Shown here: positions 3,226-29,662 of the stretch, one piece after another
How positions within the stretch are numbered: the stretch's first letter is position 1
How the letters are laid out: the number at the start of each line of letters is the position of its first letter
Virus record (IMG/VR): IMGVR_UViG_3300017992_000065
Span: 1-30,170 of that record
Length of the DNA stretch: 30,170 bases
Direction: 5' to 3' (one strand)
Source of the DNA: a virus
The notes under the pieces: model-generated
Databases searched by the model: none
The model's input: only the letters and a program-made list of their open reading frames with translations
Told to the model about the DNA's origin: nothing
Translations under genes and position numbers: made by a program

Positions 3226-3924
3226 GTGAAAACGAAAAAAGGGACCATAGACGAAAAAGTGAACGACCAGGCCGCGGCCGCAATACAGCGAGGGATTGAC
3301 GAAAAGCTCGGGATCATGGAGATCCGCTCGTTGAACGGGATCCAGATCAAGCAACAAGAGGAGGATATTTTCCGGATCACCGCGTCGACCTCGGACGTCG
3401 ACCGGGACGAGGAGATCGTCGAGCCCTCCGGAGTAAACAACCTGGATTTTTATCTCAAATACAATCCGGTGATCCTGTTCGCGCACGATCACTGGACCAG
3501 GCCGCCGATCGGAAAGGCCGTCGCCGGCCAGGTAAAGCCGCGATCGCTCGAGCTCGACATCGAGTTCGCGCCGACGCCATTCGCCCAGGAGATCAAGAGT
3601 CTATATGAGGGCGGATTTATGAACAGCTTCTCGATCGGATTCATCCCGGTAAAGCGGGAATATACCGACGAGGGGATCGCGGTCTATACAGAGTTCGAGC
3701 TCCTGGAGGTGTCCGCGGTGTCGGTCCCGGCGAACGCGAACGCGACAATCCAGAGGGCCCTCGAGGGGGCTTGTCAAAAGGGGCTCGAGTTTCCTATCAT
3801 GGAGTCAATCATCGGCCGGAACGAATCAAAGCGAAGTAAGCCGGAGCCTAAAGGCGAGAGCGCGGAAAAGCGGCGGATCCTATCCCTTGCCGATGTGTAT
3901 CTCAATCAAGGGGAAAAACAGTGA
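3226..3924 (+). CDS. Prohead maturation protease (HK97 gp4/U35-like)
   Basis: Serine protease that cleaves the capsid scaffold domain during head maturation. The 232-residue product has the family pattern: a beta-rich start with STSDVDRDEEIVEP, a His in NPVILFAHDH (about residue 87), and the nucleophile in NSFSIGF (Ser about 136), followed by LEVSAVSVPANANA. The start is GTG at 3226, preceded by GAGGAG with a short spacer, 3 bp after the portal stop. The C-terminal ~50 residues are polar and basic, probably a linker. The capsid gene starts within its stop codon (GTGA), so translation is probably coupled. Confidence 0.92.
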   Translation: MKTKKGTIDEKVNDQAAAAIQRGIDEKLGIMEIRSLNGIQIKQQEEDIFRITASTSDVDRDEEIVEPSGVNNLDFYLKYNPVILFAHDHWTRPPIGKAVAGQVKPRSLELDIEFAPTPFAQEIKSLYEGGFMNSFSIGFIPVKREYTDEGIAVYTEFELLEVSAVSVPANANATIQRALEGACQKGLEFPIMESIIGRNESKRSKPEPKGESAEKRRILSLADVYLNQGEKQ

Positions 3925-5249
3925 ACAAAATCGAATTGCTGAAACAGCTTATCAGCAAAACCGAGGATCCCGCCGAGCTCGAGGAGCTCAACAAACAGCT
4001 ACTCGAGGCGATCGAGGACGAGGCGCGGGAAAAGGCCGAAAAAGAGGCGAAAGAAAAATACGAGGCGAAACTCCTCGAGCAAAAGAAAGGCGAAACCGGC
4101 CTCGCGAAAGCGGCCGCTCTACCGGGCGGGGATCCCGATCCGAACGCCGGAGCCTACGCCGGCCAGGTGAAAGTCGTCGAGGCGGGAATGTATAAAGGCT
4201 ACTCGCTCAAGAGGGCCCGCGGCACGTTGACTAATGACGGCCGGATTCATCCGGGTCTCCAGAAACTCGCGAAAGCGGATCCCGACTCCGCGGACCTGGT
4301 TTGCAAATGGATGGTCGATCAGCTTCTCAAGGCGAGTCAATTCAATCCTGGAATGTCGCCTCAACAGAAAGCGCAAATGGTCGAGGGGACCGACGCTCTC
4401 GGCGGATACACAACTCCGACCGAGGAGCGCGAGGCGATCCTTTCGTACATCCGGGAGGTCTCTCTCGCTCTCCCGAATGTGACTACAATCCCGATGCAGT
4501 CGGACTCTATGACCATGAGCCGGGAGGATTTCAAGGTCCAGGTGAATTACACCGACGAGGCGAGCGACGCGACCGAGACCTCCGCGACCTTTGCGTCGAT
4601 CACGCTCACTCCTAAAAGGATGGACGCATACACCAAAGTGTCTAACGAGCTCATCGACGACTCCTCGGTCCCCGGCGGGATCGCGGGTCTCCTGGCCGGC
4701 CAGTTTTTCGAGGCCGTCGGCCAGAAAGTCGACTCGACCGTATTCATCGGGACCGGGGACCCTGTCTCCGGTGTTTTCCTTTCGGCTGGGACGAGCGTCG
4801 TATTCTCGAGCGGCTCGACCGCTTTCTCCGAGCTCCTCGAGTCCAACATGAGGACCGCGATCCGTAATATCAGGACCCGCCGGCTCGCCGCGGCGAAGTG
4901 GTACGCTCACCGGGTCCCGACCTGGGATTATGTCTACGGACTCCAGGACGGAAACAACCGGCCATATTTCATCGAGTCGATGGTCGCGGGAGCGCCTCAC
5001 CAGGCGTGGGGGTATCCGTTCCTCTTGCCAGAGGAAGCGCCGCAAACAAGCGCGGCGGCAACCGGGTTTATTGTGTTCGGGGACCTTCGCGGGTTTATAG
5101 TCGGGGAGCGTATGACGAACGTGAACCTATTCGTCGACCCGTACTCGCTGTCGAGGTCCAACTCGACGCAGTACCTACTCTTTACGAGGTGGGCCTATGC
5201 TCACGGGCTCAACGAGTACTACACAAGGATTGTTACGGCCGCGAGCTAA
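3921..5249 (+). CDS. Major capsid protein, HK97 fold, with N-terminal delta (scaffold) domain
   Basis: The main shell protein, 442 residues. About the first 60 residues form a charged coiled coil (LEELNKQLLEAIEDEAREKA), typical of a scaffold domain removed by the protease encoded just upstream. The shell domain shows GGYTTPTEE, an IREVSLALPNVTTIPM segment, TFASITLTPKRMDAYTKVSNEL and FIGTGDPVSGVF, all standard landmarks of HK97-type capsid proteins. The start is GTG overlapping the protease TGA. A strong terminator lies 45 bp after the stop, which should separate expression of this abundant protein from the cassette behind it. Confidence 0.95.
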   Translation: MNKIELLKQLISKTEDPAELEELNKQLLEAIEDEAREKAEKEAKEKYEAKLLEQKKGETGLAKAAALPGGDPDPNAGAYAGQVKVVEAGMYKGYSLKRARGTLTNDGRIHPGLQKLAKADPDSADLVCKWMVDQLLKASQFNPGMSPQQKAQMVEGTDALGGYTTPTEEREAILSYIREVSLALPNVTTIPMQSDSMTMSREDFKVQVNYTDEASDATETSATFASITLTPKRMDAYTKVSNELIDDSSVPGGIAGLLAGQFFEAVGQKVDSTVFIGTGDPVSGVFLSAGTSVVFSSGSTAFSELLESNMRTAIRNIRTRRLAAAKWYAHRVPTWDYVYGLQDGNNRPYFIESMVAGAPHQAWGYPFLLPEEAPQTSAAATGFIVFGDLRGFIVGERMTNVNLFVDPYSLSRSNSTQYLLFTRWAYAHGLNEYYTRIVTAAS

Positions 5250-5294
5250 ACGGCCGCGGTTGCACTCCTCCGGCGCATGGAGGCTATATCGAGA

Positions 5295-5324
5295 GGACGA
5301 GCGAGCCGGCGCTCGTCCTTTTTT
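5295..5324 (+). terminator. Intrinsic terminator after the capsid gene
   Basis: A perfect 9-bp stem, GGACGAGCG (5295-5303) with CGCTCGTCC (5310-5318), closes a 6-nt loop AGCCGG. Six T residues follow at 5319-5324, then GTTTT. This is a classic Rho-independent terminator. It lies between the capsid gene and the glycosyltransferase and would lower, or conditionally block, transcription of the modification and tail genes. Confidence 0.88.
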
Positions 5325-5349
5325 GTTTTGAAAAGGGGAGTATCTCAAA

Positions 5350-6441
5350 ATGAAAATTGCATGGATGAGCGATTGGAATCGATGGGGAAACGGGAAAGGA
5401 TACTCGGTCCATAACGGGAATATGAAAAAGTGGAGCGAGGGTCTCCCGGACGTCGAGATCGTCGACGATCCTTTCAAGGCTCCGGTCGTCCTGGATATCG
5501 TAGTCCCTCCCGGATACAAGCCGGTCCCTGGCCGTTTCAATGTCCTTTTCACTATGTACGAAATGGGGACAATCCCGAAAGACTGGATCGAGCCGATCAA
5601 CCTCGCCGATTTCATTATCGTTCCTTGCGAACACAACCGCCGGCTATTTCAGAACTACACCGACAAACCGATCGCGGTATGTCCGGAGGGAGTGGATCCC
5701 GCGGTTTATCAGTATGTCGCTCGCGACGCCGGCGTCCTTTGCGAGATCGCTCCGGGATCCGGGACCTATTACCGAAAAATGCCAGGTAATAAACACTTCA
5801 ACTTTTTATGGGTCGGGGCCTCGAATCCCCGGAAAGGTTTCGAGCTCGTTTGTCAGGCTTGGGAGGAGTGGATCGCGACCGAGCCGCAAGAGGTGATCGA
5901 GAATACCAGGCTCATAATGAAAACGACGAAAGAGAGCGAGCCAGAGTCTACGAAATGGATGTTCGGCGCGATCATCGATACACGCCGGCTCCCGGACGAC
6001 GAGCTCGTCAACCTTTACAACAAGTCTCACGCTTTCCTCCTCCCGTCGATGGGCGAGGGATGGGGGCTCACGTTATGCGAGGGGCAAGCGACCGGGCTCC
6101 CGTGTGTGTATACTCCCTGGTCCGGGCCGGTCGACTTTATGAAAAAGGAATGGTCCTATCCGGCGAAATGGAAAACGATCCCCATGAGGGCGGTCCGGAA
6201 AAAGAGCGTCGACGGCGAGGAGCTCGAGCTCGCTCACCAGGGGCCCGTCGCTTGTGCGTCGGTGAAGTCTATCACACAACGGATGCGTCAAATATACTAC
6301 GGGTACGAGGAGGCCCTCTTGAAAGGGTACAAGGGCTCGTATCATATCCGGAATAACTTCACCTGGAGAAAGTCGGCGATCAAATTGTGCGAGATCCTGG
6401 CCGAGGCGTCCGGGCAAGAGTGGACCGCGCCGGCGGAATAG
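5350..6441 (+). CDS. Glycosyltransferase, GT-B fold, GT4-like
   Basis: Probably transfers a sugar from a nucleotide-sugar donor; acceptor and sugar cannot be read from the sequence. In the 363-residue product the C-terminal donor domain begins at FLWVGASNPRKGFEL (about 152-166). It carries the E-x7-E signature of retaining GT4 enzymes in GEGWGLTLCE (Glu 236 and Glu 244), followed by ATGLPCVYTPWSGP. The N-terminal half has a Rossmann-like pattern ending in ADFIIVPCEHNRRLF. No signal peptide or membrane segment is visible, so it should be cytoplasmic. It is the first gene after the capsid terminator and is followed 10 bp later by a sulfotransferase-like gene. Capsid glycosylation by phage-encoded transferases is known in other phages; here it is an inference from position. 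Confidence 0.85.
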   Translation: MKIAWMSDWNRWGNGKGYSVHNGNMKKWSEGLPDVEIVDDPFKAPVVLDIVVPPGYKPVPGRFNVLFTMYEMGTIPKDWIEPINLADFIIVPCEHNRRLFQNYTDKPIAVCPEGVDPAVYQYVARDAGVLCEIAPGSGTYYRKMPGNKHFNFLWVGASNPRKGFELVCQAWEEWIATEPQEVIENTRLIMKTTKESEPESTKWMFGAIIDTRRLPDDELVNLYNKSHAFLLPSMGEGWGLTLCEGQATGLPCVYTPWSGPVDFMKKEWSYPAKWKTIPMRAVRKKSVDGEELELAHQGPVACASVKSITQRMRQIYYGYEEALLKGYKGSYHIRNNFTWRKSAIKLCEILAEASGQEWTAPAE

Positions 6442-6451
6442 GGAGGACCAG

Positions 6452-7090
6452 GTGATCGAGTATCCGATCCGCTTTCTACACATAATCAAAACCGGCGGAT
6501 CAACGATCGCTCGACACTTGTCAAAACACGTCGACGGATTCCGGGATCTCGATATGCACCGAGAGCCGGCCCCTGGGAGCTCCCTCGTTTTTGAAATGGG
6601 CCATAATATGAGACCGGGCGGATCCGGATCGATGATCACAATCTGGAGGGATCCCGCGGCCTGGTTGACGTCCGGATATAATCATGCTTGCGCTCGAGGA
6701 TACTCGGGATCCTTTCTCGAGTGGTACGAGGCCGGCAAGCGGGACGGGGTGAACCTGGCCGGCGGCCGATATAGCCGAATGGTGATATGGTGCTCGACGT
6801 ATTGGAAAATCCCCGCGACGGTCGAGGCGGTGATCGAGGTCCTCGAGGATTGCGAGCTCGTCCTCCTCACCGAGGAGCTCGACCAGGACCTCCCGGAGCT
6901 CTTTCGTTTCCTGGGGGTCCCGGAGACCTACGAGCGCCGGCGGGTCGCCGGAGAGTTCGATCCGGAGGACGGGGTTTTTATCCCGTGTTATAGAATCGAC
7001 GATCAGAATCTACTCGAGCGGATCCGGGAGGAGAATCCGGCCGACTACGAGATATATAATTACGTCAAGAAAAGGAGAGCGAAGCAATGA
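6452..7090 (+). CDS. Sulfotransferase-like protein (PAPS-dependent type)
   Basis: The 212-residue product begins with RFLHIIKTGGSTIARHL, which matches the 5'-phosphosulfate-binding loop of carbohydrate sulfotransferases (FxHIPKTGGTS type). ITIWRDPAAWLTSGYNHA follows at about 62-79 and matches the 3'-phosphate-binding motif (RDPxxRxxSxY type). Later, LVLLTEELDQDLPELFRFLGVP resembles the conserved C-terminal part of these enzymes. Known members move sulfate from PAPS to sugars or tyrosine. The start is GTG at 6452 with GGAGG 5 bp upstream; the end overlaps the radical SAM gene by ATGA. The central part between the two motifs is short, so the acceptor specificity is open. A degenerate or other P-loop-like role cannot be excluded. 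Confidence 0.72.
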   Translation: MIEYPIRFLHIIKTGGSTIARHLSKHVDGFRDLDMHREPAPGSSLVFEMGHNMRPGGSGSMITIWRDPAAWLTSGYNHACARGYSGSFLEWYEAGKRDGVNLAGGRYSRMVIWCSTYWKIPATVEAVIEVLEDCELVLLTEELDQDLPELFRFLGVPETYERRRVAGEFDPEDGVFIPCYRIDDQNLLERIREENPADYEIYNYVKKRRAKQ

Positions 7091-7908
7091 CGGTAAAAAT
7101 CAGCATTACAACGGAATGCGGCGCGAAGTGTAAAACGTGCCCGGTATGGCAAAAGAAAAAGGAGACAATGTCGGTCGACACGTTCCGGCTACTTTGGGCC
7201 CGCGTCAATTCCTGGCCGGGCATCTCAAAAATCTTTATCAACTCGACCGGGGACGTAAACTCCCTCCCGAACAAGCGGGAGTATTTCAACATAATCGAAA
7301 AGCTCCAGGGCCCGCCGGTCTCGATCACAATGAACGGCCGCGGGTTCGATTACGTCCCTCGAGTGGATACTCTGATTTTTTCATTCAACGGAAGCAATAA
7401 AGACAATTATGAACATACGACCGGCCTCGACTTCGAGGAGACGGTCCGCAATATCAAGAGCAAGTATCAGGAGATCAGGGAGCGGACGAAATATCGGGAG
7501 GTCAACTATCTTGTGTGGAGAGAGAACGCCGGCGGCGAGTCGGAGTTCCTGGACCTATGGCGAGACTTTCCGGGGATCCTCCGGATCGGGTATAAATGCG
7601 AGAATCAATTCGGCGAGTATTTCGGCGCGGTCCCCGGCATGGAGGACGAGGAGCGGATCCCGTGTGATTATCTCGAGGGGATCACGATCGCTCCTAATTG
7701 CCAGGTGATCCGGTGTGCTCACGACTTCGATTTTTCAACCTCCTGGGGGAACGCTCTCGAGGATCCGATCGGGAAGATCCTCGCGAATCCGGACCGAATC
7801 AAATTGATCGAGGCACACAACCAGGGGGACTATCCGGGACTATGCGAATCGTGCAACTATAATGTCAGTACGGCCGGTAAGTTCTTTTATACAAAGGGGG
7901 CCGAATAA
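7087..7908 (+). CDS. Radical SAM protein with SPASM-like C-terminal domain
   Basis: The 273-residue product has a radical SAM cluster motif near the N-terminus, Cys11-x3-Cys15-x2-Cys18 (TECGAKCKTC). A partial TIM-barrel pattern follows (FINSTGDVNSLP, VSITMNGRGF, DTLIFSFNGS). The C-terminal part carries further cysteines at 193, 205, 210, 253 and 256, in the arrangement IPCDYLEGITIAPNC...IRC, then GNALEDPIGKIL, then GLCESC. That is the layout of a SPASM/twitch domain, which binds auxiliary iron-sulfur clusters. Such enzymes modify peptides, proteins or sugars through a 5'-deoxyadenosyl radical. Its start overlaps the sulfotransferase stop (ATGA), so the two are likely made together. Substrate unknown; virion protein or glycan is inferred. 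Confidence 0.85.
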   Translation: MTVKISITTECGAKCKTCPVWQKKKETMSVDTFRLLWARVNSWPGISKIFINSTGDVNSLPNKREYFNIIEKLQGPPVSITMNGRGFDYVPRVDTLIFSFNGSNKDNYEHTTGLDFEETVRNIKSKYQEIRERTKYREVNYLVWRENAGGESEFLDLWRDFPGILRIGYKCENQFGEYFGAVPGMEDEERIPCDYLEGITIAPNCQVIRCAHDFDFSTSWGNALEDPIGKILANPDRIKLIEAHNQGDYPGLCESCNYNVSTAGKFFYTKGAE

Positions 7909-8553
7909 ATGGCAATTAACAGCGAGGTCGCTCTGGTTTCACTGGATACTTTGAAGGTGTTCCTTGCGGACACTCAGACCGACGACTTTATAAGCGACGA
8001 TAGTTACGACGCAAAGCTCGAGGGCATAATCGACGCGGTCGGGAGGTTTTTCAATACCTATACAGAGCGGACGCTCGTCGAGGCGGAGCATACCGAATAC
8101 CTCGACGGGGATGGATCCTCGACGATCCTCCTCCCTCAATTCCCGATTATATCGACGACCTCGGAGATCGAGGTCTATGTCGACATCGATCGGGAGTATC
8201 CGGCGAGCTCGAAAATCGCCGCGGATAAAATCATAATCTACTCGAAAGAGGGAGTCGTCCGGATCGAGGACGACGTATTCACCGAGGGCCCGCAATCGGT
8301 AAAGGTCGTATACACGGCCGGCTATGAGCTCACGTCGGACGACGGGGAGCTCCTCCCGGAGGATCTCCGCGAGGCGGCCCTCATGACATGCGGGGCCCTT
8401 TGGAAAACCGAAAAGGAGAAGCTATTCAAAACGTCGGCGGTTACGATCGCCGGCGGGAGCGCGACCTTTGACGTCGACGAGGCTCTCCCAAAGTTTGCGA
8501 AAGAGGTCCTCGAGCTCTATGTCGCGACGGATCGCGCCGGCATAATCTGGTAA
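7909..8553 (+). CDS. Head-tail connector, HK97 gp6-like
   Basis: The 214-residue product starts directly after the radical SAM stop. It has the outline of adaptor proteins that bind beneath the portal: an N-terminal helical part (SLDTLKVFLADTQTDD, KLEGIIDAVGRFFNTYTER), a beta-rich middle, a VKVVYTAGYE strand and a helical end (LPEDLREAALMTCGALW). VxYxAGY...P.dl..A...l is a common signature of these connectors. It resumes the structural gene order interrupted by the three-enzyme cassette. Function rests on family pattern plus position. Confidence 0.8.
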   Translation: MAINSEVALVSLDTLKVFLADTQTDDFISDDSYDAKLEGIIDAVGRFFNTYTERTLVEAEHTEYLDGDGSSTILLPQFPIISTTSEIEVYVDIDREYPASSKIAADKIIIYSKEGVVRIEDDVFTEGPQSVKVVYTAGYELTSDDGELLPEDLREAALMTCGALWKTEKEKLFKTSAVTIAGGSATFDVDEALPKFAKEVLELYVATDRAGIIW

Positions 8554-20818: not shown

Positions 20819-20985
20819 TGAAAAAGAAATGTCCTATCTGCCGGCGGTTTTTGACTAAAGTCGATGGTCGCTTTCAATGCCGGCTACACGGTTTTTTTGA
20901 GAGATCACAACTCCGGGACCGGGAGCTCCGGAACGAGCTCGGGCACGATCGCCGGTCCTGGAGGGAAAAGGAGATACAGAAATGA
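20818..20985 (+). CDS. Small zinc-ribbon-like protein
   Basis: A 55-residue protein starting at GTG 20818, which shares its G with the preceding TAG, and ending in an ATGA overlap with the endolysin gene. A G-run lies just upstream as ribosome site. Residues CPIC, then 11 residues, then C-x2-H (CPICRRFLTKVDGRFQCRLH) give a four-ligand zinc knuckle, followed by a basic tail rich in Arg and Glu. Role unknown; placement in the lysis region is unusual for a nucleic-acid-binding type motif. Confidence 0.65.
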   Translation: MKKKCPICRRFLTKVDGRFQCRLHGFFERSQLRDRELRNELGHDRRSWREKEIQK

Positions 20986-21557
20986 ACAAATCGAAAATCA
21001 GCGAATCGGACCAGGGAAACGCGATCGGCGGCGGGGTCCCGGCCAGGATCAAGCTCGCGAAGGTCCCCGCGGGGATCTCGGAGATCAAAGCATACTACGG
21101 GGACCCGGAGGATCCGGAGACCGGGGAGCTCGACGGGGACTTTCTCACCGAAAGGACGACCGTCGTCGACCTCCCTTTTCCTCTCAGGCTCTCCTGGAGG
21201 CCCGAGAAGCGGCTCGAGCGGATCCGGGTACACAATAAGGTCGCCGAGTCTATGGTCGACGCCCTGGAGGAGATCCTCGGCGTAGTAGGGGCCGAGGCCC
21301 TGGACCGGGAAAAATGGAACTACCTCGGCGGGGTTTTCCACTATCGGAAAATGGTCGCTTATAACGCGCTCTCGACTCATTCCTGGGGGATCGCGATCGA
21401 TCTCAATCCGCACCGGGCCGGATGGGGCAAGTCGCCGGCGACTCAACTCGGAGCGATCGTCCGGGCTTTCAAGGCCCGCGGTTGGGAATGGGGCGGAGAT
21501 TGGCCGCCGCAATGGACCTCGGATCCGATGCATTTTCAAGCGGCAACGGGATACTAA
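20982..21557 (+). CDS. Endolysin, peptidase M15 family (VanY/L-Ala-D-Glu peptidase type)
   Basis: The 191-residue product would cut peptide bonds in host peptidoglycan for lysis. The zinc-site motif is present: STHSWGIAIDLNP gives His133-x6-Asp140, and the third ligand is His184 in SDPMHFQ. The region between (AFKARGWEWGGDWPP) matches the M15C/D group. The N-terminal ~80 residues have no signal peptide and no recognised wall-binding repeat. Export would therefore depend on a holin, and three nearby genes encode membrane proteins. The start ATG overlaps the previous stop. Confidence 0.9.
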   Translation: MNKSKISESDQGNAIGGGVPARIKLAKVPAGISEIKAYYGDPEDPETGELDGDFLTERTTVVDLPFPLRLSWRPEKRLERIRVHNKVAESMVDALEEILGVVGAEALDREKWNYLGGVFHYRKMVAYNALSTHSWGIAIDLNPHRAGWGKSPATQLGAIVRAFKARGWEWGGDWPPQWTSDPMHFQAATGY

Positions 21558-25042: not shown

Positions 25043-25576
25043 ATGTACTTTTTCAAAGAGACCGAGCGCGGATTATGGACCGTCGGAGCGGAGGACTCCG
25101 GCGGCCAGTTTCATCCGGAGAGCGATCACTCGAGTATCGGGGAGGCGGCCGACCGGGTCGCGTATCTCAACGGCTACTCAAAGGCTTTTGATATCAAGGC
25201 GGACGCCGGCGACTGCTATATCGTAAACGGGATCCACTCATGGATACTGGTCGCCGAGGGGCGGACGATCCCTTTCTCCGGCGGGTGTTTCGCCGAGTAC
25301 CTGGGGGACGTATACAAGCGGCTCGGGTTTACGCCGCACTATCTTAAACAGTACGGGCAATTTGACATTCGAGGTTTTCGGGTCAACGACCGGGTCCGGG
25401 CTCTACCCTGGGCGGTCTCCGGAGCGTACAACCTCGGGGCCACGGAAGCTCGAGACGGTTTCGTCCGGTCGTCAATGGAGGATCAAGGGAAAGTAGTCGT
25501 CGAGTTCGAGTATCCGTACAAAGAACACTCGATATTGAGTCTACCGATTGACCGGGTTTTTAGATACACTCTGTAG
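25043..25576 (+). CDS. Unrecognised early protein with SH3-like C-terminal pattern
   Basis: 177 residues from ATG 25043, one base after the previous stop; GGGGGAGG lies just upstream. The frame is open far upstream, but that part covers other genes and is rejected. The N-terminal part (YFFKETERGLWTVGAEDSGG, RVAYLNGYSKAFDIKAD) looks like a small globular domain. The last ~65 residues (RVNDRVRALPWAVSGAYNL, then GKVVVEFEYPYKE) have the strand order of SH3-like barrels, often nucleic-acid binding. No catalytic motif; function unknown. A promoter starts 2 bp after its stop. Confidence 0.78.
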   Translation: MYFFKETERGLWTVGAEDSGGQFHPESDHSSIGEAADRVAYLNGYSKAFDIKADAGDCYIVNGIHSWILVAEGRTIPFSGGCFAEYLGDVYKRLGFTPHYLKQYGQFDIRGFRVNDRVRALPWAVSGAYNLGATEARDGFVRSSMEDQGKVVVEFEYPYKEHSILSLPIDRVFRYTL

Positions 25577-25578
25577 AC

Positions 25579-25607
25579 TTGACCGCTCCGGTATGGCGTG
25601 GTATAGT
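25579..25607 (+). promoter_or_regulatory. Sigma-70-type promoter for the recombination genes
   Basis: TTGACC (25579-25584), a 17-bp spacer and TATAGT (25602-25607) are close to consensus. A start near 25614 would give a short leader of about 24 nt before the Rad52-family gene at 25638. It begins 2 bp after the previous stop codon. Confidence 0.82.
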
Positions 25608-25637
25608 GAGAGACCATTTTTCAAAGGAGAGAAAATC

Positions 25638-26354
25638 ATGGTAACAAAAAAAGAGCTCGAACTATTGCGGGCCCCATTGGTTGACGCCGAGGTCGACTGG
25701 CGGGCCTCGAGGTGCGGGACCGGACAAAAAGGAAAGTACGCTTTCCTGGTCCCCTACTTGAACCGGATCGAGGTGATCGATCGCCGGCTCGACGGGATAC
25801 TTGGCCCGGAGAATTGGAAAAACGAGGTCCTCATCCATGAGGGCGGAGTCGTCTCGACGATATGGATCAACGTCGGCGATACCTGGATCCCTCGGACCGA
25901 CGGGGCCGGGTACACCGACTATGAGGGATTCAAGGGAGGGATCTCCGACGCTTTCAAGCGGGCTTGCGTTCTATGGGGAATAGGGCACGAGCTCTACAAG
26001 GTGAAAGAGGTCGGGGTATTCGGCCAACAGATACACGACGGCTACCCTCCGAACGACGGCGGGTATTACGTCAACCTCCAGGCAAAAGCGAGAAACAATC
26101 AACCGGCCTGGTTTGGATGGGTCGGTAAACCGTCGATCGAGGGATTCTGGAAACTACAGGAGAAAAAGGAGGAAGATAGAAAGGCGGCGGTCGCGAGAAA
26201 AACCGGGGCCGCGCCGACGGCGGAGGGTCCGAGCGGGGGCCCTCCAGGAGATCCCCGATCCGGGGATCCGCGCTACCAGGGAGACGAGTCTCCTCCCGTG
26301 GACGAGTCCGCGCCGCCGGACGACGCCTACAACGACGAGCTCGATATTTTTTAG
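25638..26354 (+). CDS. Rad52-family single-strand annealing protein
   Basis: 238 residues. The core matches phage Rad52/22-type annealing proteins: LDGILGPENWKNEVLIHE, VVSTIWINVGDTWIPR, and the signature TDGAGYTDYEGFKGGISDAFKRA, split here as DGAGYTDYEGFKGG and SDAFKRACVLWGIG, then HELYKV. These anneal complementary strands during phage recombination and genome repair. Residues 175-238 are a disordered Pro/Gly-rich linker ending in an acidic-hydrophobic tip (NDELDIF), reminiscent of SSB tails that recruit partners. Own promoter and AAAGGAGAG ribosome site. The adjacent exonuclease gene completes a two-component recombinase. Confidence 0.9.
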   Translation: MVTKKELELLRAPLVDAEVDWRASRCGTGQKGKYAFLVPYLNRIEVIDRRLDGILGPENWKNEVLIHEGGVVSTIWINVGDTWIPRTDGAGYTDYEGFKGGISDAFKRACVLWGIGHELYKVKEVGVFGQQIHDGYPPNDGGYYVNLQAKARNNQPAWFGWVGKPSIEGFWKLQEKKEEDRKAAVARKTGAAPTAEGPSGGPPGDPRSGDPRYQGDESPPVDESAPPDDAYNDELDIF

Positions 26355-26372
26355 AGGAGAGGTGAAAAAGGA

Positions 26373-27077
26373 ATGTCTGAACGAATGACAGCGAAACCAG
26401 AAAAGATGCTCAAAAAGGACCGGACTCATCAACGGTATTACATCGAGGAGAACGGGAAAAAGATCCGGGTCCCTGGGGTGACTACTATCTGCGGGATCAA
26501 CGCAAAGCCGGCGCTCATCGGATGGGCCAACAAAATGGGACTCGACGGGATCGATACTCGCTCATACGTCGACTCGCGGGCCAACATGGGGACCTGTGCT
26601 CACGATATGGTCGAGGCTTTCCTCCTGGGGAAAGAGCCCTACCTCGACGAGTTCTCAAAGGTCGAGATCGAGTCGGCGGAGTCGTCGCTCCTCTCGTTTC
26701 ACGAATCGATGAAAGGCGTCGAGTATAAATTGATCGGGCTCGAGATTCAGCTTGTAAGCAAACACCTCCGGTGTGGCGGGACGATTGATATCTACTGGGA
26801 GTACAACGGCAAAAAGCGATTAACGGATCTCAAGACGAGCAAGACAATCTATCCGGATCAATGGACCCAGGTCGCCGCCTACTGGGGGATTATGCTCGAC
26901 AACGGGCTCGAGGTCGACGAGGTCTCGATCCTCAATATCCCGCGGGCCGAGGATGAGGAGTTTCTCCATCCGGTCATGGCAAAGGAAAAGCTCCAGCTAC
27001 ACCTCGAGCGGTTCCGACACTCCAGGGCGATATACGATCTCAATAAATCACTAGGGATAAATCAATGGCGAAGCTGA
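26373..27077 (+). CDS. PD-(D/E)XK exonuclease, RecB/Cas4-like, partner of the annealing protein
   Basis: 234 residues. The nuclease core is seen as His77 in GTCAHDMVEAF, Glu124 in GLEIQL, Asp139 in GGTIDIYWE, Asp152-x-Lys154 in LTDLKTSK, and the Q-rich helix QWTQVAAYW (Gln163/166, Tyr170). This order is that of RecB-like and related phage exonucleases. It would resect double-strand ends to make single strands for the Rad52-family protein 18 bp upstream. The N-terminal ~30 residues are basic. The AbrB-like gene begins inside its last 13 bp. Confidence 0.87.
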   Translation: MSERMTAKPEKMLKKDRTHQRYYIEENGKKIRVPGVTTICGINAKPALIGWANKMGLDGIDTRSYVDSRANMGTCAHDMVEAFLLGKEPYLDEFSKVEIESAESSLLSFHESMKGVEYKLIGLEIQLVSKHLRCGGTIDIYWEYNGKKRLTDLKTSKTIYPDQWTQVAAYWGIMLDNGLEVDEVSILNIPRAEDEEFLHPVMAKEKLQLHLERFRHSRAIYDLNKSLGINQWRS

Positions 27078-27232
27078 AACTATGGGGCCTCGTAAAGGTC
27101 CTCAAACAAGGGTACTCGTTACAAGTAACGATTCCGAAAGAGATCGCCGGGGAGCTCGATATCAATCCCGGCGACAAGCTCAAGGTCGAGTACTCGGAAA
27201 AGAGGCGGGAGATTGTCTACTCGATCGACTGA
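27065..27232 (+). CDS. AbrB/SpoVT-type (MazE-like) DNA-binding protein
   Basis: A 55-residue protein easily missed because of its size. The whole sequence fits a swapped-hairpin AbrB domain: GLVKVLKQGYSLQVTIPKEI, then LDINPGDKLKVEYSE and a final strand REIVYSID. The VTIPKEIxxxLxIxxGDxLxV pattern is the family signature. These dimeric proteins act as transcription regulators or as antitoxins. Start ATG 27065 overlaps the nuclease end by 13 bp; GGGA lies about 8 nt upstream. No toxin-like partner is seen next to it, so a regulatory role (for example on the promoter 240 bp downstream) is more likely. Confidence 0.82.
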   Translation: MAKLKLWGLVKVLKQGYSLQVTIPKEIAGELDINPGDKLKVEYSEKRREIVYSID

Positions 27233-27239
27233 TTTCCAG

Positions 27240-27500
27240 GTGCTCACCTACCGAGGGAAGTCTCTCGCGGGGATGAGCGCCGACGAGCTCCGCGGCGTCG
27301 TTGACGATATGGCCGAGACCTATCGCCGGCGGCTCCGGAAGCTCCGCGCCGAGGTCGAGCGGATCGCGAGAAATGCGGACGCGATCTCGAGGGGCGCGAT
27401 TTTTTCGGGAGTCGATTTTTATCGAGAAACTATCACGGGGGCCGTCAAGAAATTATGTGTCGACCTGGACCTTGACGGTATCGAAAGAGGGGAACTATAA
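27240..27500 (+). CDS. Small helical early protein, unknown function
   Basis: From GTG 27240 the product has 86 residues and begins with LTYRGKSLAGMSADELRGVV, a natural-looking N-terminus. An in-frame TTG at 27213, with AGAGG 7 nt upstream, would add 9 residues and cannot be excluded. The rest is helical and charged (RLRKLRAEVERIARNADAIS) and ends VDLDLDGIERGEL. No cysteine or membrane segment. Its final codons carry the promoter at 27472-27501, including the TATAAT box over the stop codon. Confidence 0.68.
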   Translation: MLTYRGKSLAGMSADELRGVVDDMAETYRRRLRKLRAEVERIARNADAISRGAIFSGVDFYRETITGAVKKLCVDLDLDGIERGEL

Positions 27501-27501
27501 T
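27472..27501 (+). promoter_or_regulatory. Strong sigma-70-type promoter for the replication genes
   Basis: TTGACG (27472-27477), an 18-bp spacer and a perfect TATAAT (27496-27501). It lies inside the end of the preceding gene; the TAA stop is part of the -10 box. A start near 27508 would give a leader of about 138 nt before the small membrane protein and the replication initiator. Confidence 0.85.
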
Positions 27502-27645
27502 CGGTATGTCGGTTTGACCGCCGACTCACTTCGATGCACACCGAAAATAGGGACGGGGCCCTCCTGGGAGTATTCGCGCTATGGTGTGCGGCGCGGTACT
27601 CGGTCAACGGGAGGACCTGGTCCCTTTTTTATTTTGGGAGGAAGT
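27502..27645 (+). other. Leader region of the replication transcript
   Basis: No credible gene. Contains GGGA/TCCC (27609-27612, 27621-27624) followed by TTTTTTATTTT, a weak terminator- or attenuator-like element, and then GGGAGGA as ribosome site. Whether it attenuates transcription cannot be judged from the sequence. Confidence 0.35.
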
Positions 27646-27750
27646 GTGAAAGATTTCCTAATCGGAGCCCTCGTCCTGGCGATCCTGGTCGCGGCGTTCT
27701 TATGGGGAGCCCTGGTCCTTTGGATAGTCGCGGAGGCGGTCGCCGGATAA
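27646..27750 (+). CDS. Tiny single-helix membrane protein
   Basis: 34 residues from GTG 27646, preceded by GGGAGGA (27636-27642). Almost the whole product is one membrane helix (FLIGALVLAILVAAFLWGAL, then VLWIVAEAVAG). Its TAA shares the A with the ATG of the replication initiator, so the two are coupled. Codon use matches the phage, and the ribosome site and coupling support it as real. Role unknown; a membrane anchor or early host-interaction protein is possible. Confidence 0.62.
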   Translation: MKDFLIGALVLAILVAAFLWGALVLWIVAEAVAG

Positions 27751-28586
27751 TGCTCGACTCTCTATCCTGGACGCAAGTCTCAAACACATTTATTGACGCA
27801 CTACCGGAGCTCTCCGGGGCCGAGGCGAAAGTCATGATCGTGATTTTTCGATCGACTATCGGCTGGCATAAGACAAGCGACCGGCTCGCGATCTCGAGGA
27901 TCTCGGACCTGGCGGGGATCAAGGATCGAAAAACGATCTCCGACGCGGTCAAGGCCCTCGAGCGCCGGGGATGGATCTCGGTCGATCGGAGAAAATCCGG
28001 GTCGATCATCGATCTCGTTATGGGGGAAAATCCCGCATACGACACGGGAGGTGGTAGGATAATCCAACCACCGGCGGTTGGAAAATCCAACCATGAGCGG
28101 TTGGAAAATCCAACTGTCAAAAGAAATAAAGACTCTAAAAAGAAAGTATATATATCAACGGGGATGGATAATCCCTCAAAGGTCGAGATCGAGGAGGCGG
28201 CGAAAGAGCTCATCGGATATCTGAACGGCCGGACCGGGAGGGATCACCGACCGGACTCATCGGCACTATTGACCGGGATCCGGGGGAGAGCCGCGGACGG
28301 GTTTACCGCTCGGGATATTGCGAAGGTATTCAAATACAAGTGTGATCATTGGATCGGGACCGAGTGGGAGCCCTACTTGCAACCGTCGACGCTCCTCCGG
28401 AAAAGTAAGTTTGACGAGTACGTCGTCGCTATGAGATACGAGGAAAGGGAAAACGGGGAGATAGCAGAAAATGAAAAAAGAAAACGAGAGCTCGAAAGCG
28501 GGGATCCGGGCGGCGGAATTACTCCCGGCGGTATTCAAGAAAATCGACCAGGAGACAATCAAGGGCTTTCTGCGTCGGGACTATGA
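27750..28586 (+). CDS. Replication initiator with N-terminal winged-helix and Phg_2220-type C-terminal domain
   Basis: 278 residues. The N-terminal ~95 residues are a phage replisome-organiser type winged helix (FRSTIGWHKTSDRLAISR, ISDAVKALERRGWI). A polar linker (100-140) is encoded by the iteron and AT-rich DNA. The C-terminal domain has YLNGRTGRDHRP, GFTARDIAKVFKYKCDHW and YLQPSTLLRKSKFDEYV, the signature of the conserved phage C-terminal domain (TIGR02220 type). It should bind the iterons, melt the adjacent AT-rich DNA and recruit the helicase. ATG 27750 is coupled to the preceding stop; the in-frame extension back to 27534 has non-phage codon use and overlaps another gene. Overlaps the next gene by 116 bp. 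Confidence 0.88.
   Translation: MLDSLSWTQVSNTFIDALPELSGAEAKVMIVIFRSTIGWHKTSDRLAISRISDLAGIKDRKTISDAVKALERRGWISVDRRKSGSIIDLVMGENPAYDTGGGRIIQPPAVGKSNHERLENPTVKRNKDSKKKVYISTGMDNPSKVEIEEAAKELIGYLNGRTGRDHRPDSSALLTGIRGRAADGFTARDIAKVFKYKCDHWIGTEWEPYLQPSTLLRKSKFDEYVVAMRYEERENGEIAENEKRKRELESGDPGGGITPGGIQENRPGDNQGLSASGL
28053..28114. repeat. Three palindromic iterons, 23-bp period (candidate replication origin)
   Basis: GGTTGGAAAATCCAACC, a 17-bp palindrome with 7-bp arms, occurs at 28076-28092, at 28099-28114 (last base changed) and as a two-mismatch copy GGTAGGATAATCCAACC at 28053-28069. Starts are spaced exactly 23 bp, about two helical turns. A further core GGAAAATCC lies at 28025-28033, off-phase. 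The array is inside the initiator gene, as in lambda O. Confidence 0.85.
28116..28157. other. AT-rich tract beside the iterons, candidate unwinding element
   Basis: About 42 bp made mostly of A and T, with AAAAGAAATAAAG and GTATATATATCA, in an otherwise GC-rich gene. It directly follows the third iteron. Asymmetric AT-rich DNA next to iterons is the usual melting site of lambdoid origins. Confidence 0.7.
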
Positions 28587-28914
28587 GGAGGCGAAACGGA
28601 TCGGCGCGGACCGGATCGCGGCGCGGATCCGGCAAGAGGCCCGCGGCGGACCTTGCGAATCATGCGGGACTCCCTGGGAGGAGATCGAGGTCAAACATCA
28701 TTACGCGGACTATGTCTACTATTCGCCGGCTTGTCGATGTTTTCCGCGGTGTCCGGTGTGCGGTAATTCCTGGCATCGAGTAGCGGATCCGGGGACCTCG
28801 GTCAACGATCGAAAATGTCCCTCTTGCGGATGGACCAGGGCGAAACAGAAAAAGAAAAACGAGAGCGCCGGCGGAGCGAACGAGCCGAGGCTCCCGTATT
28901 CGGACGACGATTGA
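28471..28914 (+). CDS. Zinc-ribbon protein in the replication module
   Basis: 147 residues, starting at ATG 28471 within the last 116 bp of the initiator gene; GGGGAG lies upstream and no later in-frame start fits. The N-terminal half is helical (LLPAVFKKIDQETIKGFL, RIGADRIAARIRQEA). The second half carries CESC, a C-x-C pair in ACRCFPRC, CPVC and CPSC, enough for two zinc ribbons, followed by a basic tail KQKKKNE. Likely binds DNA or a replication protein. In many phages the gene after the initiator is a helicase loader; no ATPase motif is present here, so that role is not supported. Confidence 0.78.
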   Translation: MKKENESSKAGIRAAELLPAVFKKIDQETIKGFLRRDYEEAKRIGADRIAARIRQEARGGPCESCGTPWEEIEVKHHYADYVYYSPACRCFPRCPVCGNSWHRVADPGTSVNDRKCPSCGWTRAKQKKKNESAGGANEPRLPYSDDD

Positions 28915-28939
28915 AAATCAATTTTGCAAAGGAGAGAAT

Positions 28940-29662
28940 ATGCAAAAGACAGAAACAGCGAAAGCGGTCGTATTGGCGGAGGACGTGAAAAAGATCCTCG
29001 AGAAAGAGGGGACCGAGGTCGTCGACCTGGCCGAGGAGTTCGGAGTCGAGAGCGCGGCGGAGTATGCGTTCGGGCTCGAGCTCCTGGACGATATCAAGGC
29101 GATCGACAAAAAGATCCTCGAGAAGGTGTCGCCGATATGCGACGCAACCAACAAGGCCCACAAAGCCGCGACGACGCTCCGGACCGAGCTCCGGGCTCCA
29201 GGGCTCAAGGCCGAGAAAATCGTAAAGGATAAACTCGACGCATACGACCGGGAACAGCGGCGGATCCAGGAGGAAAAGGACCGGGCGGCCGAGGCGGAGC
29301 GGAGAGCGGAGGAGGAGGCTATCCGAAAAGAACAGGAGCGACTCCTCGAGGAGGCGGCCGATCTCGAGACCCGCGGTGAGGAGACGATCGCGGAGGGCCT
29401 GGTCGACGAGGCCGAGGAGCTCGAGACCTATGTCCCGCCGCCGGTCGAGTTCGGGGGCCCGCCGCCGGAGGACCTGGTCCCTCGAGGGATGGACTACCGG
29501 GACAATTGGAAAGCGGTCGTCTTGACTCCCGACCTGGTCCCGCGGGAGTATTGCTCTCCGGACCTGGTCAAACTAAACAAGCTCGCAAAGGAGACCGAGG
29601 GGAAAGGAGCTCCTCCCGGTGTGATATTCAAAAACGAGCGGATCCGGATCCGGAGGGGGTAG
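28940..29662 (+). CDS. Coiled-coil phage protein, unknown function
   Basis: 240 residues with AAAGGAGAG upstream. The first ~90 residues are helical (LEKEGTEVVDLAEEFGVE, ELLDDIKAIDKKILEKV), then a long charged coiled coil (about 95-155; YDREQRRIQEEKDRAAEAER, EEEAIRKEQERLLEE). An acidic Pro-rich linker (YVPPPVEFGGPPPED) leads to a C-terminal domain starting RGMDYRDNWKAVVLTPDLV. Proteins of this outline are common beside phage recombinase and replication genes, usually of unknown function. No catalytic motif was seen. Confidence 0.78.
   Translation: MQKTETAKAVVLAEDVKKILEKEGTEVVDLAEEFGVESAAEYAFGLELLDDIKAIDKKILEKVSPICDATNKAHKAATTLRTELRAPGLKAEKIVKDKLDAYDREQRRIQEEKDRAAEAERRAEEEAIRKEQERLLEEAADLETRGEETIAEGLVDEAEELETYVPPPVEFGGPPPEDLVPRGMDYRDNWKAVVLTPDLVPREYCSPDLVKLNKLAKETEGKGAPPGVIFKNERIRIRRG

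Follow-up and report, generated by a model that had tools for sequence, protein, structure and literature searches.

The window analysed here, a 30,170-bp stretch of DNA from an uncultured bacterial virus (IMG/VR record IMGVR_UViG_3300017992_000065), carries a small cassette of enzyme genes between its capsid and connector genes. The core unit of this cassette is a glycosyltransferase (GT) gene paired with a radical SAM gene, to which a sulfotransferase gene is added optionally. Judging from gene content and position, we regard it as reasonably probable that these genes, set in the head operon of a tailed phage of lambda-like type, are an exchangeable unit by which a glycan is built and tailored on the most abundant proteins of the virion.

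Genomic context of the cassette

The three open reading frames that the first-pass annotation had placed between the capsid and connector genes were found intact, and the close spacing it described is present in the sequence: the sulfotransferase gene starts 10 bp past the GT stop codon and overlaps the radical SAM gene through an ATGA. The region contains the following features.

3921..5249, + strand: major capsid protein (MCP), HK97 fold (Pfam Phage_capsid, 1.3e-32; PHROG major head protein, 6.5e-35)
5291..5329, + strand: terminator-like hairpin, GGACGAGCG...CGCTCGTCC then TTTTTTGTTTT, seen in the sequence between the MCP gene and the cassette
5350..6441, + strand: GT4-type glycosyltransferase, 363 aa, core gene (Pfam Glyco_trans_1_4, 1.3e-10; PHROG_2170 glycosyltransferase, 2.2e-27)
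6452..7090, + strand: predicted PAPS-dependent sulfotransferase, Sulfotransfer_2-like, 212 aa, GTG start, optional middle gene (motifs KTGGS and RDPAAWLTSGY)
7087..7908, + strand: radical SAM enzyme, 273 aa, core gene, whose auxiliary cluster site is of the four-Cys twitch type (Cys motifs, profile and AlphaFold model)
7909..8553, + strand: head-tail connector/adaptor gene, the downstream bound of the slot (PHROG_442 head-tail adaptor, 4.2e-18)

The cassette is preceded by genes for terminase, portal, protease and MCP and followed by those for the connector, a neck protein, a tail-terminator-like protein, a tail protein and the tape measure. The hairpin in the nearest relative (L003) is the same as that of the window, and most relatives have other hairpins at the same place. 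The hairpin of the window, lying past the MCP gene, would probably lower expression of the cassette enzymes relative to the capsid protein. Between the window and L003, dN/dS equals 0.10 for the GT and 0.06 for the radical SAM gene, and the range of 0.04-0.12 across the GT, radical SAM and MCP genes identifies all three as working genes. Elsewhere in the window, positions 20982-21557 and 25548-29662 encode an endolysin, an Erf-like annealing protein, exonucleases and an O-like replication protein, an organisation like that of lambda; no tRNA genes were found.

Conservation of the GT and radical SAM gene pair

The first-pass annotation had proposed a neighbourhood search with the three proteins. 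Scans of viral contigs and bacterial genomes yielded about 30 further contigs, all of them metagenomic fragments; the window and an identical twin (L002) were counted as one. The GT gene adjoins a radical SAM gene of the window's family (type A) in 23 of 23 distinct contigs, and sulfotransferase homologues recur in the slot. In one relative (L022) the pair lies elsewhere, between the tail terminator and major tail protein genes, and in reversed order, and its members are still adjacent. The view of the three enzymes as a coupled trio thus holds for the GT and radical SAM genes, which form the unit, whereas the sulfotransferase is an optional addition to it.

A second scan, based on the MCP and so independent of cassette content, recovered 28 contigs with 24 judgeable slots. 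A GT gene occupies every one of these slots, and 21 also have a radical SAM gene (19 of type A and two of another family). The remaining three (L041, L046 and L048) have none, which indicates that the radical step is dispensable. Four contigs fall outside the 24: L033 ends inside the GT gene, L034 ends just past the MCP gene, L040/L055 ends before the radical SAM gene could be judged, and L043 has no recognisable GT in its short stretch 3' of the MCP gene. Distances between sequences are correlated at r = 0.88 for GT and radical SAM, 0.79 for GT and MCP and 0.62 for MCP and connector, values on which close pairs weigh; this co-divergence could in part reflect inheritance of the head module as a whole.

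Among 50,697 cultured phage records, no homologues of the sulfotransferase or radical SAM enzyme were found except for one radical SAM protein with 22% identity in phage C48C1, and no radical SAM homologue was detected on plasmids. In the bacterial genome collection, a first scan for the radical SAM enzyme found none and a second found one MAG contig, itself phage-like; 97 relatives of that MAG had no strong match. The distant radical SAM gene of C48C1, a large member of Kyanoviridae (L004, positions 90881-107759), is located past the baseplate genes, with genes for a glycosyltransferase and a Nol-like carbamoyltransferase close by, and this region may be a further cluster for a glycan of the virion or the surface.

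Radical SAM enzyme and its candidate substrate

Seven cysteines are invariant in all 22 radical SAM sequences, namely C11, C15 and C18 of the CX3CX2C motif, C193-x16-C210 and C253-x2-C256. The radical SAM fold recurs in the AlphaFold model (pLDDT 83), for which the best Foldseek match is BlsE at 5e-9, and the first-pass call of a radical SAM enzyme is upheld. The same annotation had described the additional cysteines as SPASM-like. The SPASM domain is typical of peptide modifiers and has seven cysteines, CX9-15GX4C...CX2CX5CX3C...C, which hold two auxiliary clusters. Only four conserved cysteines (C193, C210, C253 and C256) are present beyond the radical SAM motif, the protein scores slightly under the cut-off of Pfam SPASM, and the full SPASM label was rejected on this cysteine count in favour of a four-Cys twitch-type site.

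When the radical SAM profile was compared with solved structures, the sole meaningful sequence match was BtrN (5e-4), a 2-deoxy-scyllo-inosamine dehydrogenase that acts on a cyclitol. BtrN is a twitch enzyme with one four-Cys auxiliary site (PMC9012708). The four cysteines align with those of BtrN, so that both proteins combine CX3CX2C with a single four-Cys site at matching positions, and the window enzyme is predicted to carry a single BtrN-like twitch auxiliary cluster. In contrast, overall identity to BtrN is low, and the Foldseek TM score is about 0.5, with several other radical SAM enzymes scoring similarly. The structural neighbours (BlsE, SuiB, SkfB, MoaA, SpeY, EpeE, DesII, BtrN and anSME) mix sugar enzymes with peptide modifiers, and therefore the fold by itself does not decide whether the substrate is a sugar or a peptide.

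The presence of peptide modifiers among these neighbours counts against a glycan-directed cassette, as does the occurrence of the GT without a radical SAM gene in L041, L046 and L048. An alternative, which we consider unlikely, is that the radical SAM enzyme has the capsid protein as its direct substrate, for example through C-H oxidation, epimerisation or side-chain crosslinking, making or accompanying the site used by the GT, with sulfate or methyl groups added later. SuiB, SkfB, EpeE and anSME all modify peptides, the minimal GT and radical SAM unit adjoins the MCP gene, and NCBIfam records a weak similarity to the metalloenzyme maturase W_rSAM_matur (3e-9), all of which suit this alternative. 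Set against it are the four-Cys site in place of the seven-Cys SPASM domain of peptide modifiers, the position of BtrN as the only meaningful match among solved structures, and the absence of a conserved precursor peptide from the cassette.

GT and its likely acceptor

The GT scores above the curated Pfam cut-off for GT group 1 (Glyco_trans_1_4), and GEG-x6-E, the E-x7-E motif of the GT-B C-terminal domain, is kept in all 28 GT relatives; together with the PHROG match, this agrees with the GT4-like assignment made at first pass. Homologues of the same family with about 24-25% identity were found in the cultured phages KellEzio of Arthrobacter (gp28), Magritte of Microbacterium (gp31) and Peregrin of Rhodococcus (gp60). 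Those of KellEzio and Magritte lie directly past the tail terminator gene, and the Magritte GT is followed at a short distance by the gene annotated as major tail protein. The GT family is shared with the window, but these two GTs occupy a tail and not a head position, and in the stretches examined around them neither a radical SAM nor a sulfotransferase partner is annotated. A proposal of virion glycosylation exists for Peregrin (PMC13313380).

A second GT of L024 and a GT of L008 are likewise located immediately 5' of the major tail protein gene. GTs of this kind thus accompany the genes for the MCP or the major tail protein, the pair of proteins most abundant in the virion. Position and co-divergence point to the MCP as the most likely acceptor in the window, and the major tail protein is probably the acceptor in some relatives. 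Two other phages, L006 and L008 (contigs 3300044730_000782 and 3300046028_008083), have a more extensive island of sugar genes in this slot: the MCP gene is followed by a GT4 gene, a family-2-like GT, a sugar epimerase, a DXD-type GT, a GT2 gene and the connector gene, and another GT gene lies just 5' of the major tail protein gene.

Cell-surface glycans are the usual products of GT4 enzymes, and the sulfotransferase and GDP-mannose 4,6-dehydratase (GMD) families also serve surface polysaccharides. These affinities would fit a cassette that alters the O-antigen, teichoic acid or capsule of the host surface and thereby blocks superinfection, which we judge improbable: flippase and polymerase genes are absent beside the cassette, its position is fixed next to MCP or major tail protein genes in the late morphogenesis operon, and cultured-phage GTs in such positions have been linked to virion glycosylation. 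The first-pass annotation had suggested a sulfated or radically modified glycan, or a peptide mark, on the virion or host surface. The virion glycan is the part of this proposal that fits the virion-gene setting and the tailoring middle genes, and the same setting of the related GTs makes a host-surface target less likely.

Sulfotransferase and other middle genes

The window sulfotransferase has no direct match in Pfam, PHROG or NCBIfam. However, homologues occupy the same slot in L016, L017, L035, L045 and L040/L055, and KTGG[ST] and RDP..W..S.Y are retained in the diverged members from the first four of these contigs. A profile of the family finds heparan sulfate 6-O-sulfotransferase (4.7e-6), and the homologue in L046 passes Sulfotransfer_2 (PF03567) with 29.3 bits against a cut-off of 22; those in L016 and L045 score slightly under it. 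The likeness lies in the KTGG 5'-loop for PAPS and the 3' RDP...S.Y motif, whereas the window protein, at 212 aa, is short and is itself under every library threshold; its AlphaFold model, made with only three aligned sequences, has a pLDDT of 41. By these motifs and profile matches the window protein is tied to the carbohydrate sulfotransferases, and its original description as a PAPS-type enzyme stands. In L046, which has the GT without a radical SAM gene, a sulfotransferase of the same family is encoded just 5' of the packaging genes (729-1403). According to a study of marine phages, it is unclear what phage sulfotransferases do (PMC10580990).

The gene found between the GT and radical SAM genes varies among the relatives as follows.

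Sulfotransferase: window/L002, L016, L017 (with a transglutaminase-like gene), L035 and L045
Methyltransferase: L005 and L021; a remnant in L044
NAD-dependent sugar epimerase family: L036
Virion-like ORF: L024; a virion-like ORF is also present in the slot of L045
Nothing: L003, L010, L012-L014, L018-L020, L023, L025, L032, L038 and L039

Most of these middle genes encode enzymes for sugar or small-group tailoring, which fits a modified virion glycan. In the nearest relative, L003, the radical SAM enzyme is 94% and the GT 89% identical to that of the window, and the two genes are joined directly with no sulfotransferase gene between them. Altogether, sulfotransferase presence changes at least three times on the radical SAM tree and at least four times on the GT tree. 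The methyltransferase remnant of L044 (3202-3426), an N-terminal portion between the GT and radical SAM genes, suggests decay of a middle gene. L055 carries genes for the MCP, a sulfotransferase, a C-terminally extended GT and GMD (gmd, 2.3e-112). GMD is an enzyme of deoxy-sugar nucleotide synthesis, and its presence links the slot directly to nucleotide-sugar chemistry. Within this capsid slot (L055, 1501-3973), the GT extension looks FkbM-like (methyltransferase) by eye with no library match, and the GMD gene comes next.

The radical SAM gene is exchanged as well. L010 and L031 have DNA that is about 82% identical on either flank and GTs that are 92% identical, yet the former carries a type A and the latter a type B radical SAM gene; the two types share 28% identity over about 60 residues, and the switch coincides with the gene. 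Type B proteins, which NCBIfam matches to STM4011/viperin-like enzymes and which have conserved C-terminal cysteines, are encoded in L031 (7463-8263) and L045 (5803-6636). That of L045 is 56% identical to that of L031 and occurs together with a sulfotransferase. This exchange, along with the type B gene of L045, indicates that a radical step is apparently wanted at the slot and that either family can supply it, even though L041, L046 and L048 lack such a gene.

A variable middle gene and the virion-like ORFs of L024 and L045 might also be expected of a cargo hotspot where unrelated auxiliary genes gather between the MCP and connector genes without cooperating. We find this very unlikely given the adjacency of GT and radical SAM genes in 23 of 23 contigs (including L022, where they lie elsewhere and in reverse order), their co-divergence (r = 0.88) and the radical SAM genes of another family at the same position in L031 and L045. 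Least probable of all, and rejected for want of a conserved precursor, is a RiPP cluster in which a radical SAM maturase, a GT and a sulfotransferase make a peptide natural product: radical SAM and GT pairs do occur in some RiPP cassettes, NCBIfam glyco_rSAM_CFB weakly matches the GT (E 0.23) and short ORFs of 61-70 aa lie 5' of the GT gene in L012-type phages and L003, but these ORFs are unrelated and missing from the window and most relatives, and exporter and peptidase genes are absent from the cassette. The ORF of L003 (1968-2180) encodes 70 aa with two CxxC pairs, lies between the hairpin and the GT gene and overlaps the GT start; it is absent in the window.

Proposed pathway

For the preferred reading, a virion glycan, we infer the following order of steps. 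The capsid protein would be made from the operon, and the GT4 enzyme would move a sugar from a nucleotide-sugar donor onto it, or in some relatives probably onto the major tail protein. By analogy with the action of BtrN on a cyclitol, the radical SAM enzyme may then oxidise or otherwise remodel this sugar through H-atom abstraction. The sulfotransferase would place PAPS-derived sulfate on the glycan as an optional last step; relatives may lack this step or carry out methylation or sugar epimerisation instead. Masking or tuning of the virion surface is a plausible role for the product.

Comparison with known systems and significance

Glycosylation of the phage capsid is known in a few mycobacteriophages and changes antibody recognition. 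In the cluster O mycobacteriophages (Corndog/Firecracker), an O-methyltransferase and glycosyltransferases are encoded between the portal and protease genes, and Corndog capsid peptides were scarce in mass spectrometry (PMC4351075). Phage GTs reportedly glycosylate both capsid and tail-tube proteins and lower the binding of antibodies (Freeman 2023, as described in PMC12363180). The window shares with mycobacteriophages such as Corndog and Firecracker of cluster O, Che8 and Myrna the design of phage-encoded GTs and, in these phages, a methyltransferase among head genes; their capsid and tail-tube proteins are glycosylated (PMC4351075, PMC12363180). Its counterparts to this design are a GT inside the virion structural module in all 24 judgeable MCP relatives and tailoring partners comprising the methyltransferase of L005 and L021, the sulfotransferase of the window, the epimerase of L036 and the GMD of L055.

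The Firecracker enzymes (gp33-gp36) differ in that they lie between portal and protease, whereas those of the window lie between MCP and connector, and in that they include neither a radical SAM enzyme nor a sulfotransferase, both of which the window has. Homology of the window GT to the Firecracker cassette enzymes was rejected, since the GT profile matched gp33-gp36 with an E value of 0.3 at best. The window cassette thus resembles the Corndog design but uses non-homologous enzymes, and it would bring radical SAM chemistry and sulfation to this theme as new elements; our literature search found no report that couples phage shell glycosylation to radical chemistry or sulfation. More tentatively, and at somewhat under even chances, these sequences may represent an uncultured phage group whose capsid glycan is remodelled by a radical SAM enzyme and sulfated in several lineages, with tailoring enzymes swapped as interchangeable alleles in the manner of O-antigen or DNA-hypermodification genes.

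Environmental phages carry, beside the capsid gene, a distinct and deeply conserved cassette of a GT and a radical SAM gene with exchangeable sulfo-, methyl- and sugar-modifying enzymes. If the proposed pathway is correct, radical SAM chemistry and sulfation would extend to virion surfaces, and the cassette would be a source of new sugar-tailoring enzymes and provide testable functions for phage sulfotransferases. It would also suggest ongoing selection for variety in the capsid mark.
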